Source: Chlamydoabsidia padenii (lineage: Eukaryota; Mucoromycota; Mucoromycetes; Mucorales; Cunninghamellaceae). Taken from it: 64,000 nucleotides of DNA. Location of the stretch: NCBI GenBank assembly GCA_025330725.1, contig JAIWND010000039.1:124001-188000 (forward strand), in the 5' to 3' direction. Position 1 is the stretch's first letter. Every line of letters starts with the position of its first letter. The notes under the pieces were generated by a model. That model saw only the letters and a program-made list of their open reading frames with translations, had not been told where the DNA came from and ran no database searches. Shown here piece by piece: positions 4,573 through 63,794 of the stretch. A program made the position numbers and the translations under genes.

Positions 4573-8097
<3,525 letters not shown>

Positions 8098-40134: not shown

Positions 40135-40887
40135 TTAACTAAAACCAGTAGGTGGGTACAATCCTTTATTCTTTGGTCCATCCATACGGAAGTAATCCTC
40201 TCCATTCACAGCACGTTGTTCCCACACATCACCCTTGCTGATTCGTTGGGGTTGATATCCCATGTGGACTTTGACCCGCTTACCGTCGGTATTAACAATC
40301 GTCTGATTACCATAAAATCCTTCCCGAATCATTTTCGTATCAGCATGTTTGTAATTTTCCAAAAAGCTATAGTTGTTGGTCAGCCATCTTGTGATGTTAT
40401 GTGCTCGGTACTTTGCGATCAAGGTCCATTTTCCCTTGTCGCCTGAGCGATACCAAGCCGTGTAATCGCTGTAATTACCCGCCTTATTCACATCCGCTAA
40501 TAGCCGGAAGAAAACAGTTTCTTCGGATTTCCAATTATAATGCAACATAGTGTGCATACCCGTGCCTTCACCTCCGAAATACTCATTTTTACCGCCCTCA
40601 CCCACTTGAAGGGCGTCGACTTTGCCGCCTTTTTGATCATCCCAAATCGAAAACAAAATGCGGCGTTCGGTCCCATCATTATGCTGCATGCCGAGATACC
40701 CTCGATTGAAGCCTATGGCACACCAATAAGTGTGGTTGGGATCGGATCCCTTGGGCACTCGGATGGAAGACTCCATTACTTTGATGGTACCAAAATTATC
40801 AGGCACGCGCCACCAGTTTACCAAGTACACCGCAGATACTTGCTGGGTAATTAAGGATACCAGTAAACACCAAGAGAAAAATTGCAT
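40135..40887 (-). CDS. Secreted DUF3472-domain protein
   Basis: A single-exon gene of 250 residues. The first 19 residues (FFSWCLLVSLITQQVSA) form a classic signal peptide. The mature part carries DUF3472-type blocks: GYLGMQHNDGTERRILFSIWD, GGEGTGMHTMLHYNW, TAWYRSGDKGKWTLIA and FYGNQTI. Five N-glycosylation sequons are visible (NHT, NYS twice, NIT, NQT). DUF3472 is a beta-rich extracellular domain found in bacteria and fungi without a settled function, sometimes next to carbohydrate-binding modules. The lack of introns contrasts with its neighbours. Confidence 0.75.
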   Translation of the reverse strand: MQFFSWCLLVSLITQQVSAVYLVNWWRVPDNFGTIKVMESSIRVPKGSDPNHTYWCAIGFNRGYLGMQHNDGTERRILFSIWDDQKGGKVDALQVGEGGKNEYFGGEGTGMHTMLHYNWKSEETVFFRLLADVNKAGNYSDYTAWYRSGDKGKWTLIAKYRAHNITRWLTNNYSFLENYKHADTKMIREGFYGNQTIVNTDGKRVKVHMGYQPQRISKGDVWEQRAVNGEDYFRMDGPKNKGLYPPTGFS

Positions 40888-50740: not shown

Positions 50741-50812
50741 AATGGATGAGGAAAGAAAAAAAAAGTTAAAGCACAGTAGAGCCTTCTTATAGGATATATG
50801 TAGGTTAAAAGC

Positions 50813-50868
50813 CAAGCACCAAGTCCCTTGTTTCAGTTTGTTTGAACTTGTGTTGACTTTTACCTGTC

Positions 50869-50937
<69 letters not shown>

Positions 50938-51440
50938 GTTGAAGAGGAAACCCACATCGTATTCAAACCCCGCTTTCCTTGATTCCCTACCAAGATTTGG
51001 ATGGGCTCTCCTCGCTCCATTGTTAAAGGATGCTAATGATTAAAGTGGCGATGTGAATACTATAACTCATTTCCAACATACTTTACCACAAAATTCAAGC
51101 GCCAAGATTCTTGTGTCAGTCTGTCCAAGCTTGTAATGAGTTTTACCTGTCTTTTGCAGAAGACTTTTTTTACAGATAGAAGCTAAAATCATATTCAAAT
51201 ACCACCAGTTCCTAGTCAGAATTGGAAGGAGCTTTACCGCTCCATTGTCATTGGATGCTAATGACTAAAGTGGCCATGTGGACACTATAATCCATTTCTA
51301 ATATACTTTACTTCAAATTCAAGTACCAAGGCCCTTGTGTTAGTATGTTTAGACTTGCAATGACTTTTACCTTTCTTTGCGACGAAAGATATATTTTTTT
51401 CTAGACGAAAGAAAACTTCATTTTCAAACGCGGTTTATAG
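50813..51440 (+). repeat. Three diverged tandem repeats of about 224 bp
   Basis: Units begin at 50813, 51096 and 51320 with related text CAAGCACCAAG, CAAGCGCCAAG and CAAGTACCAAG, each followed by CTTGTGT-like and TTTTACCTGTC-like blocks and, in the first two, by GGATGCTAATGA. The first unit is 283 bp because it contains an uninterrupted run of 60 A residues (50875-50934); without it all steps are about 224 bp. They lie just upstream of the secreted-protein array. No coding frame is conserved between them. Confidence 0.7.
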
Positions 51441-51579
51441 GATCAGATGTTCTTCATCTATTACCATTTATGTTTCATATTACCAATACACACCGGTTTA
51501 CGGACCTTGAACCTTTCAGTACATCTTTTCGCCATTCCTAATGCCGTTTTCAAAAAAAAAAAAAAAAAAATCTTGAAGG

Positions 51580-51587
51580 TATAAATA
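51580..51587 (+). promoter_or_regulatory. TATA box of secreted-protein copy 1
   Basis: TATAAATA 50 bp before the start codon, within a segment shared with copies 2 and 3. Confidence 0.65.
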
Positions 51588-51629
51588 GGGTGATTAAAAG
51601 TTTACTTTTTTCCTGCCTTTACAGACAAA

Positions 51630-51938
51630 ATGAAGTTTTCTGGTTTGAGTTTGCTTGCAGTACCTTTCTTATTAGCTGGTGTGGCCTCGGCAGAAGATCA
51701 ATTCACGCTTGTTTATGCGGATGGACCGGAAATGGTTGATTATGGAGCATGTAGCCCTATTACAAAACCAGATGGCACCCCATTGAGAATAATCGAACTC
51801 TCGGATTTTTCATTGTGCACTGTTTCAAGTGACCAATTCTGCCACTTGAAAGATATTAAGGACCGTATTATGCTGCCCCCAGGGAGATATCCAGCCCCAG
51901 CGGCTCCCCATGGCTATATCTCATGCAAAATGCATTAG
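51630..51938 (+). CDS. Small secreted four-cysteine protein, copy 1
   Basis: A single-exon gene of 102 residues. Residues 1-21 (MKFSGLSLLAVPFLLAGVASA) are a signal peptide with a clean AxA-type cleavage site. The mature 81-residue protein has cysteines at 41, 63, 71 and 99, enough for two disulfide bonds, and no membrane segment or GPI signal. It starts a tandem array with copies at 52736, 53723 and 54990. I do not recognise the family; the profile (short, secreted, cysteine-paired, in a tandem array, rapidly changing) is that of a secreted interaction protein or effector candidate, which is inference. The TATA box, a short A-rich leader (ACAAAATG) and the 3' flank are shared with copy 2. Confidence 0.8.
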   Translation: MKFSGLSLLAVPFLLAGVASAEDQFTLVYADGPEMVDYGACSPITKPDGTPLRIIELSDFSLCTVSSDQFCHLKDIKDRIMLPPGRYPAPAAPHGYISCKMH

Positions 51939-52378
51939 AAAAGGCTCCATGTTGGTTTTCTTTCTCTCTTAACCTATTAAGTTACTCTTGAATCCATTCT
52001 TTCTTTTGATGACGATAGTGCGATAATAAAGAGGATGATGATAATTAAATAGAGGTATTGGTGTATTTCCAAATGATGAAAAACCCTTATCATCAATAAA
52101 GAAACCCCATGGAGGTTTACATGGCACTTTTACCGTTAGCCCGTATGATATGCCGCTCTTTTACATTATGTATCGATTTTTTACATTGATCGGGGCTGGA
52201 ATATATTTCAGTCCCGCGAGGGGGTCATTATATGCCGGAGTAATAACTTTACAATGTTGATGTATCCAAGCATTTTGTTGGGATGAGATATCTTGTACAA
52301 ATTAAAAACTATAAGCGTTTCAAAACAGCGTCTAATCTTTGCATGAACCTTTCAAATAAAGCAATATTGCCATTGACA

Positions 52379-52400
52379 TTCAAACACCGACATTCATGCA
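52379..52400. promoter_or_regulatory. Extended motif ending CCGACATTCATGC, array spacer 1
   Basis: TTCAAACACCG is followed by ACATTCATGCA, an extended version of the motif seen across the window. The same element recurs at 53488-53508 and about 54600-54613 in the next spacers. Confidence 0.4.
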
Positions 52401-52683
52401 AAAAAAAATCAAGTTGATTTCCCGCTTTCTCGCCGTCCTTCCCCTTTTTCGATAAAGTTACAGTTTTCAGGTAAAATAAAAACATAAAAAAATGCTTTCA
52501 GTTTATAGGATTGAGTGAGGTGGATGAGAATGGAGGAACCGAAATCTAAGTATGTCTCTTTTTTGTTCCAGTTCTTGAGCTACCGACATGCGCTCCGAAT
52601 ACATACCGGTTTACCGACCTTGAACCTTTCAGTACATCTTTTCGCCATTCCTAATGCCGTTTTCAAAAAAAAAATCTTGAAGG

Positions 52684-52691
52684 TATAAATA
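52684..52691 (+). promoter_or_regulatory. TATA box of secreted-protein copy 2
   Basis: TATAAATA 52 bp before the start codon, in the same context as copy 1. Confidence 0.65.
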
Positions 52692-52735
52692 GGGTGATTA
52701 AAAGTTTACTTTTTTTTTCTGCCTTTACAGACAAA

Positions 52736-53047
52736 ATGAAGTTTTCTGGTTTGAGTTTGCTTGCAGTACCTTTCTTATTAGCTGGTGTGGCCTTGGCAGA
52801 AGATCAATTCACGCTTATTTATGCGAATGGACCGGAAATGGTTGATTATGGAGCATGTAGCCCTATTACAAAACCAAATGGCCTCCCATTGAGACTACTC
52901 GATCTCCCGAATTTTTCATTGTGCACTGTTTCAAGTGACCCATCCTGTCACTTGGGAGATATTAGGGACCATATTATGCTGCCCCCAGGGAAATATCCAG
53001 CCCCAGAGGCTCCCCATGGCTTTATCTCATGCAAAAAATTGCATTAG
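52736..53047 (+). CDS. Small secreted four-cysteine protein, copy 2
   Basis: Single exon, 103 residues, with the same signal peptide as copy 1 except Ser 20 to Leu. Cysteines lie at 41, 63, 71 and 99. Compared by eye with copy 1, 19 codons carry amino-acid changes and one codon is added near the C-terminus, while only one synonymous change is seen (a Cys codon). Its 3' flank of about 470 bp differs from that of copy 1 at only about six sites. The duplication is therefore recent and the coding part has changed much faster than the flanks. The start at 52736 is chosen over the in-frame codon at 52694 because the latter precedes the shared leader. Confidence 0.8.
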   Translation: MKFSGLSLLAVPFLLAGVALAEDQFTLIYANGPEMVDYGACSPITKPNGLPLRLLDLPNFSLCTVSSDPSCHLGDIRDHIMLPPGKYPAPEAPHGFISCKKLH

Positions 53048-53671
53048 AAAAGGCTCCATGTTGGTTTTCTTTCTCTCTTAACCTATTAAGTTACTCTTGA
53101 ATCCATTCTTTCTTTTGATGACGATAGTGCGATAATAAAGAGGATGATGATAATTAAATAGAGGTATTGGTGTATTTCCAAATGATGAAAAACCCTTATC
53201 ATCAATAAAGAAACCCCATGGAGGTTTACATGGCACTTTTACCGTTAGCCCGTATGATATGCCGCTCTTTTACATTATGTATCGATTTTTTACATTGATC
53301 GGGGCTGGAATATATTTCAGTCCCGCGAGGGGGTCATTATATGCCGGAGTAATAACTTTACAATGTTGATGGATCCAAGCATTTTGTTGGGATGAGATAT
53401 CTTGTACAAATTAAAAACCAGAAGCGTTTCAAAACAGCGTCTAATCTTTGCATGAACCTTTCAAATAAAGTAATATTGCCATCGACATTCAAACACCGCC
53501 ATTCATGCAAAAAAATCAAGTTGATTTCCCGCTTTCTCGCCGTCCTTCCCCTTTTTTGTTCCGGCTCTTGAGCTACCGACATGCGCTCCGAATACATACC
53601 GGTTTACCGACCTTGAACCTTTCAGTACATTTCCACCCCTTCCTAATGCCGCTTCCAAAAGGCCTTGAAGG

Positions 53672-53679
53672 TATAAATA
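53672..53679 (+). promoter_or_regulatory. TATA box of secreted-protein copy 3
   Basis: TATAAATA 51 bp before the start codon, in a segment nearly identical to that of copies 1 and 2. Confidence 0.65.
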
Positions 53680-53722
53680 GGGTGATTAAAAGTTTACTTT
53701 TTTTCCTGCCTTTACAGACAAA

Positions 53723-54037
53723 ATGAAGTTTTCTGGTTTAAGTTTGCTTGCAGTGCCTCTCTTGTTAGCTGGTGTGGCCTCGGCAGAAGATCAAATAAGA
53801 CTTTTTTACTGGCATGGGCAGGAAATGGTTGATTATGGAGCATGTAGTCCTCTCACAAAACCAGATGGTTCCCAATTAGTCCTAATCGAACTCTCAGTTG
53901 ATGGGGTGTGCTCTGTTTCAAGTGACTCATCCTGTTCCTTGGGAGATATTAGCCCACCTGCTAAAGAATCTGCAGGACTAGTTCCTCCCCCACAAGATAC
54001 CCATACCGGTTATTTTACATGCAAAACAATTCCTTAG
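53723..54037 (+). CDS. Small secreted four-cysteine protein, copy 3
   Basis: Single exon, 104 residues. The signal peptide is nearly the same as in copies 1 and 2, differing mostly at synonymous sites, while the mature part has diverged strongly, for example IRLFYWHGQEMVDYGAC and SVDGVCSVSSDSSCSLGD. Cysteines are kept at 41, 63, 71 and 100. The region between the third and fourth cysteine is Pro- and Ser-rich and differs in sequence from copies 1 and 2. The 3' flank is related to the others but more diverged. The function is unknown. Confidence 0.78.
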   Translation: MKFSGLSLLAVPLLLAGVASAEDQIRLFYWHGQEMVDYGACSPLTKPDGSQLVLIELSVDGVCSVSSDSSCSLGDISPPAKESAGLVPPPQDTHTGYFTCKTIP

Positions 54038-54989: not shown

Positions 54990-55303
54990 ATGAAGTTTTC
55001 TGGTTCAACTATTCTAGCAGTATCTCTCATATTAGCTGGTGTGACCTCGGCAAAAATGAAGTGATACTCGGTTACGAAAATGGACAAACGCCTGTCGATT
55101 TTGGTGCATGTGCACCTGTTATGAAACTAAATGGCGCTGAATTGATCACCTTCTCTCTCACAGCTGATGCGCAGTGTTCTATTTCAAGCGACGATTCCTG
55201 TTCACCGGGAGCTATTAATCCTTATACTAAACCGTTCAAAGGACAATATTCTGCTATAAAGTATTCTCCATATAGCTACAGGACATTTAAAAAAGATACT
55301 TAG
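54990..55303 (+). pseudogene. Secreted four-cysteine protein, copy 4 (broken)
   Basis: The signal peptide is still readable from the ATG at 54990 (MKFSGSTILAVSLILAGVTS) but runs into a stop after 25 codons. The mature part continues in another frame from about 55052 with GACAPVMKLNG, DAQCSISSDDSC and a C-terminus that lacks the fourth cysteine. The break is a one-base length change in an A-run at 55052-55056. The TATA box is also degenerate: TACAAATA at 54939-54946, at the same distance (51 bp) as in the intact copies. Loss of frame, cysteine and TATA together argue for a real pseudogene, although a sequencing error in the A-run could explain the frame alone. Confidence 0.68.
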
Positions 55304-63461: not shown

Positions 63462-63794
63462 ATGAATTTCTTCTTGGCTCAATTAAGTCAAGCTCAGCCC
63501 GTCGCGTTGGATATCGCCACTCAAAACAAACCAGAACCAATGTTTTATATACTTGTTCACTACAGTGGAGATTCACCTTTTGAACACATTCCCCCAGGAC
63601 AGTGTTTTCCAGGCACCCGTGACAGTGCACCAATCGATGACTTGTTCTTCAAGTATGACAATAAATGCTACCTCTACCAAGACGCCAACTGTCAAACTCT
63701 TGTCCAACCAGATTCCGTTAACTTCAAGTCCGGAAAGTATCAACGAACTGTTTTGGAAAATAGTTTTAACCGTTGCCTAGTTACACTCACATAA
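63462..63794 (+). CDS. Four-cysteine protein related in layout to the secreted array
   Basis: A single-exon frame of 110 residues with cysteines at 48, 69, 77 and 105. The spacing C-x20-C-x7-C-x27-C nearly equals that of array copy 1 (C-x21-C-x7-C-x27-C), and both have a Gly-basic-Tyr triplet 14 residues after the third cysteine (GKY here, GRY there). Sequence identity is otherwise low. The N-terminus (MNFFLAQLSQAQPVA) is only weakly hydrophobic, so secretion is less certain; an unseen upstream exon is possible. The function is unknown. Confidence 0.62.
   Translation: MNFFLAQLSQAQPVALDIATQNKPEPMFYILVHYSGDSPFEHIPPGQCFPGTRDSAPIDDLFFKYDNKCYLYQDANCQTLVQPDSVNFKSGKYQRTVLENSFNRCLVTLT

Follow-up and report, generated by a model that had tools for sequence, protein, structure and literature searches.

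The window analyzed here, a stretch of 64,000 nucleotides (G000:C33:124001-188000) from the 34.2 Mb, 95-contig genome of the mould Chlamydoabsidia padenii (Mucorales, Cunninghamellaceae), carries a head-to-tail cluster of small genes for putatively secreted four-cysteine proteins. Three intact one-exon open reading frames (ORFs), starting at 51630, 52736, and 53723, are followed by a broken copy 4 near 54990. A putative signal peptide, recognized by eye in the sequence, covers approximately residues 1-21 in copies 1-3, and the TATA box TATAAATA lies 50-52 bp upstream of the ATG in every intact copy. The cluster and a distant member of the family found in the same window are laid out as follows.

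51486..51629, plus strand: promoter 1, with TATAAATA 50 bp upstream of the ATG
51630..51938, plus strand: copy 1, a protein of 102 amino acids (aa) with an N-terminal signal-like stretch and four cysteines
51939..52449, plus strand: 3' flank of copy 1; against the copy 2 flank, 6/464 differences (51936-52399) and 0/40 in 52410-52449
52558..52735, plus strand: hybrid promoter 2, with TATAAATA at -52
52736..53047, plus strand: copy 2, a 103-aa protein
53048..53556, plus strand: 3' flank of copy 2, compared with that of copy 1
53551..53722, plus strand: promoter 3, with TATAAATA at -51
53723..54037, plus strand: copy 3, a 104-aa protein that served as the outgroup
approximately 54990..55303, plus strand: copy 4, broken, with a frame shift past the signal peptide, the fourth cysteine missing, and a degenerate TATA box
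63462..63791, plus strand: distant family member that has four cysteines and whose N-terminal signal region is short

The hybrid promoter and the age of the duplication

Promoter 2 is a mosaic. Its segment at approximately 52560-52615 matches promoter 3 with two exceptions (52570 and 52572), from 52638 onward it matches promoter 1 save for one substitution and homopolymer lengths, and the switch from the gene-3 to the gene-1 type falls between 52616 and 52637. Promoter 2 resembles gene 3 upstream and gene 1 downstream, which shows that a single unequal crossover, joining the gene-3 promoter to that of gene 1, duplicated the 1.1-kb unit. With one event, all parts of the duplicated unit share one age. 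An earlier, sequence-only reading of this DNA had described the promoters of copies 1 and 2 as nearly identical. This holds for substitutions (3/131), but 11 columns are gapped in homopolymers and the upstream part of promoter 2 is of the gene-3 type. The same reading had raised the idea that the copies might be misassembled alleles of one gene, which fits poorly with the recombinant junction in promoter 2 and was disfavored.

The stretch of approximately 108 bp at 52450-52557, between genes 1 and 2, has no counterpart between genes 2 and 3. A deletion there is the likely cause, because a stretch that looks similar by eye precedes gene 4.

Divergence of copies 1 and 2

Codon alignment of copies 1 and 2 revealed 20 differing codons, of which 19 carry a replacement and one a synonymous change (TGC/TGT at the third cysteine), plus one inserted codon, exactly as counted in the sequence-only reading. 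Codon positions 1 and 2 account for 20 of the 22 changes. After polarization, nine changes belong to the copy 2 lineage and eight to the copy 1 lineage, with five of unassigned lineage. In the mature coding part 20/243 sites were changed, compared with 6/464 in the 3' flank (p 8e-6) and 1/63 in the signal peptide. The earlier estimates, about six differences in roughly 470 bp of flank and an almost unchanged signal peptide, were thus borne out, though the signal peptide differs from the mature part at borderline significance only (p 0.051). The four cysteines, said to be kept, are invariant in the 12 aligned family members.

Copies 1-3 were subjected to NG86 counting, pairwise codon maximum likelihood (ML), and branch ML with copy 3 as the outgroup. 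For copies 1 and 2, counting gave 1.0 synonymous difference (Sd) in 69.5 sites and 21 non-synonymous differences (Nd) in 236.5, that is, an omega (dN/dS, the ratio of non-synonymous to synonymous rates) of 6.5 (p 0.023). Pairwise codon ML gave an omega of 8.9 (profile interval approximately 1.9-154, p 0.0018), 9.65 under equal codon frequencies (p 0.0012), and 8.0 when limited to the mature part (p 0.0033). In the branch analysis, omega was 7.45 on the two young branches versus 0.74 on the old branch; the data rejected an omega of 1 for the young branches (p 0.004) and likewise one shared omega (p 0.004). When 22 mutations were placed at random, at most one was synonymous in 0.4-1.8% of trials (P 0.004-0.018, by kappa). 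Relaxed constraint or decay of one copy, to which the broken copies elsewhere in the family might point, would give an omega of about 1, rejected at p 0.002-0.004; moreover, both lineages changed while reading frames, cysteines, and TATA boxes were kept, making this explanation extremely improbable.

The divergence of neutral DNA in the duplicated unit was estimated from the 3' flank (6/464 and 0/40), synonymous sites (1/69), promoters 1 and 2 past the crossover (1 in approximately 94), and promoters 2 and 3 before it (2/80). Pooled, these classes gave 10/747, or 1.3%, and the ML neutral length was 0.041 per codon, or 1.4% per site. On this yardstick approximately three differences were expected at non-synonymous sites, whereas 21/236 were observed (p 1.9e-7).

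Several points limit the strength of these contrasts. The copy 1/2 pair was chosen as striking, the p-values are uncorrected for that choice, and every selection test on it rests on 22 changes. The frame control over 300 bp gave one synonymous to 18 replacement codons in the coding frame, and since one antisense frame (with four stops) also gave 1:18, the frame contrast by itself is not decisive. The replacement excess is limited to this pair, dN/dS being 0.66 for copies 1 and 3 and 0.79 for copies 2 and 3. Finally, the opening 332 bp of the 3' flank is identical in copies 1 and 2, all six differences being crowded into the remainder (post hoc P 5e-4), so some of the flank may have undergone homogenisation, which weakens the contrast without abolishing it. 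Without the identical run the yardstick became 10/415 and the contrast p 2.6e-4; when only the remaining flank (6/172) served as the reference, it was p 0.022.

The identical run is also what speaks for gene conversion of the flanks beside older coding parts that diverged without positive selection, the alternative named in the sequence-only reading. Under this explanation (ALTERNATIVES), approximately six synonymous differences are predicted for old coding DNA flanked by converted stretches, but one was observed (P 0.015). Moreover, the contrast survives removal of the run, the promoter junction is consistent with one crossover, and a similar age (2/80) follows from the segment of the hybrid promoter that derives from gene 3. 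Flank-only conversion therefore fits poorly, and we consider it highly improbable. A mutational origin, by clustered multi-base mutation or by conversion patches from an unseen, diverged paralogue, would agree with the arrangement of copy-specific changes in blocks (16 labelled codons fell into five runs; shuffle p 0.036), one of which is a two-base change within one codon. However, the assembly holds no donor for either patch at up to three mismatches, the changes show no significant clustering in their spacing (p 0.11 and 0.33), and neither clustered mutation nor patch conversion alone spares synonymous sites; this origin, too, is very unlikely.

Altogether, positive selection very probably acted on copies 1 and 2. 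The sequence-only reading had proposed diversifying selection and, as its check, a codon-aligned dN/dS with confidence limits; dN/dS exceeded 1 by both counting and ML, and the neutral classes agree near 1.3%, although the excess applies to the 1/2 pair and not to the comparisons with copy 3. Its confinement to the youngest pair would suit an adaptive burst without conflict, that is, a one-time separation of the copies, e.g., onto two endogenous partners or substrates. Yet the older pairs have had time to gain synonymous changes that would mask earlier bursts, and a fast turnover with broken copies fits continuing change. The 22 substitutions do not separate a post-duplication burst from continuing conflict, and we regard the burst as a distinctly less probable but serious alternative.

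The family in the genome and its predicted fold

With six members used as genome queries and a local profile applied to fetched stretches, at least approximately 16 loci were found: six on C33, the contig of the window, seven on C24 (one weak, E 0.001), and one each on C64, C34, and C51. These counts are lower bounds, as scoring was limited to the best candidates and the fetched stretches cover the contigs in part. Beside the cysteines, D68 and G85 are nearly invariant in the 12 aligned members, and at least three loci (copy 4, C24_158718, and C33_188891) look broken. Copies 1-3 are acidic, with isoelectric points (pI) of 4.3-5.7; C24_134560 and the C51 member are basic (approximately 9). The protein tree is poorly resolved, the only starred one of its ten inner branches being that of the copy 1/copy 2 pair. 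In the member at 63462-63791 the signal region seems shortened relative to C24_177474, with a TAA inside the longer alignment.

No Pfam match was obtained for copies 1-4, and among the 12 members only one had a match, a sub-threshold one to MerR. Copy 1, the profile, P0003, and P0002 retrieved nothing below E 0.3 from the PDB sequences. A search of 5.8 billion proteins, which requires shared five-residue words, gave no match to copy 1, and one and two matches to two alignments, all of them C. padenii proteins. Relatives outside this genome were thus not found with a search of that kind, genome searches having been confined to C. padenii; nor was a report of the family found in the literature among the matches listed. 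Public protein searches returned three distant C. padenii paralogues and not copies 1-3, so the tandem copies seem to have escaped public annotation.

The family proteins are, in all likelihood, secreted, as predicted from their sequences, and they probably share a crystallin/killer-toxin-like fold, that of a yeast killer toxin and of the crystallins of the eye lens, a prediction based on VIA-align 2. A betagamma-crystallin domain has two Greek keys made of eight strands in all and spans approximately 80-90 residues; its hairpin signature is [FYW]xxxx[FYW]xG and its calcium motif [ND][ND]xx[ST]S. The hairpin signature is absent from copies 1-3 and occurs in two of the 12 aligned members (in one at the C-terminus, the other being the 63462 member; the count covers the mature part of C24_176285), the calcium motif occurs in none of the 12, and none gave a crystallin Pfam match at E up to 10. 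The replacements between copies 1 and 2 are neither enriched nor depleted in the predicted strands (9/18, strand fraction 0.57). Structural matches include the Neurospora Abundant Perithecial Protein and the bacterial Protein S. These matches, together with the acidity of copies 1-3, would suit a developmental, spore-coat, or mating protein under selection from within-species recognition, but all 12 aligned members lack the calcium-binding motif that coat-type crystallins usually carry, and such a role appears unlikely.

The killer toxin of Williopsis (Cyberlindnera) mrakii, WmKT or HM-1 (PDB 1wkt), is one of the nearest counterparts, at 7% sequence identity. It has more disulfides and a basic charge, unlike copies 1-3 with their four cysteines and acidic pI, for which killing of sensitive yeasts is a candidate activity. 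The plant antimicrobial protein MiAMP1 (PDB 1c01) also differs from copies 1-3, in its cysteine spacing and basic charge.

Among fungal effectors, the orphan 'Crystallin' candidates are secreted and predicted to form a betagamma-crystallin/WmKT double Greek key, and in a survey they count among eighteen families present in >80% of 20 species (PMC10462633). The C. padenii proteins resemble them as putatively secreted orphan proteins with the same predicted fold. The text of the survey makes no mention of Mucor, Rhizopus, or Mucoromycota, and in C. padenii the tandem pair is young and its neutral clock was measured. The small secreted cysteine-rich SCR74 effectors of Phytophthora are described as being under strong positive selection with conserved cysteines (PMC7327169). 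The family agrees with them in a dN/dS above 1 (copies 1 and 2) and in kept cysteines (12 aligned members). However, SCR74 proteins belong to an oomycete and have 6-8 cysteines and the PcF domain PF09461, to which the family gave no Pfam match.

Other features were noted in the window. A dispersed repeat at 50797-51431, just upstream of the cluster, contains an internal A-run of 60 and has at least 40 full or partial genome copies at 80-89% identity (40 scored of 565 first-look candidates); a ten-copy alignment suggests a longer element elsewhere. On the minus strand, 40135-40887 is an ORF whose product has a signal-like N-terminus and a DUF3472 domain (E 1e-52), and the ORF at 6040-8097 includes a 78-bp coding tandem repeat (6656-6996, 4.4 copies, 93% match). 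Identical tandem-repeat finder rows exactly 1500 bp apart, at 942-975 and 2442-2475, may reflect a larger direct duplication.

A possible role for the duplicated proteins

The account that we favor, to which we give an even chance as a whole, joins a secreted tandem family, a crossover, positive selection, and an antagonistic partner. Its first step, the unequal crossover that duplicated the 1.1-kb unit, is shown by the hybrid promoter. While neutral sites diverged by approximately 1.3%, selection, on the statistics for this pair, very probably fixed about 20 replacements, spread across both copies, on a kept four-cysteine frame. The protein would be exported and may meet a partner that sits on or comes from a different organism, for example a competing microbe, a mycoparasite, or a grazer; duplicates would be retained since a changed surface can bind, or evade, a partner that itself changes, with older copies decaying. 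The odds that the role is antagonistic are balanced. The acidity of copies 1-3 argues against simple cationic killing, and inhibitor, binding, or developmental roles are conceivable.

A bolder hypothesis, which we hold to be distinctly less probable, is that of an interference or recognition system built on a cysteine-stapled killer-toxin/crystallin fold in a mould of an early-diverging lineage. In such a birth-and-death family of approximately 16 loci, a new tandem duplication would start a burst of surface replacements, giving strain- or species-specific secreted antagonists or blockers thereof.

Small secreted proteins under diversifying selection are known chiefly from pathogens and venoms. 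Beyond the sequence-only reading, the analysis adds the dated crossover, the orphan family, and its predicted killer-toxin/crystallin-like fold. In this Mucorales mould diversifying selection carries its own clock: because the near-identical flanks and the hybrid promoter date the duplication, equally old neutral DNA provides the yardstick for selection. Should the prediction of a killer-toxin-like fold be right, the family would offer a small collection of candidate proteins for antagonism or recognition, with copies 1 and 2 as a ready pair for asking what the replacements do.
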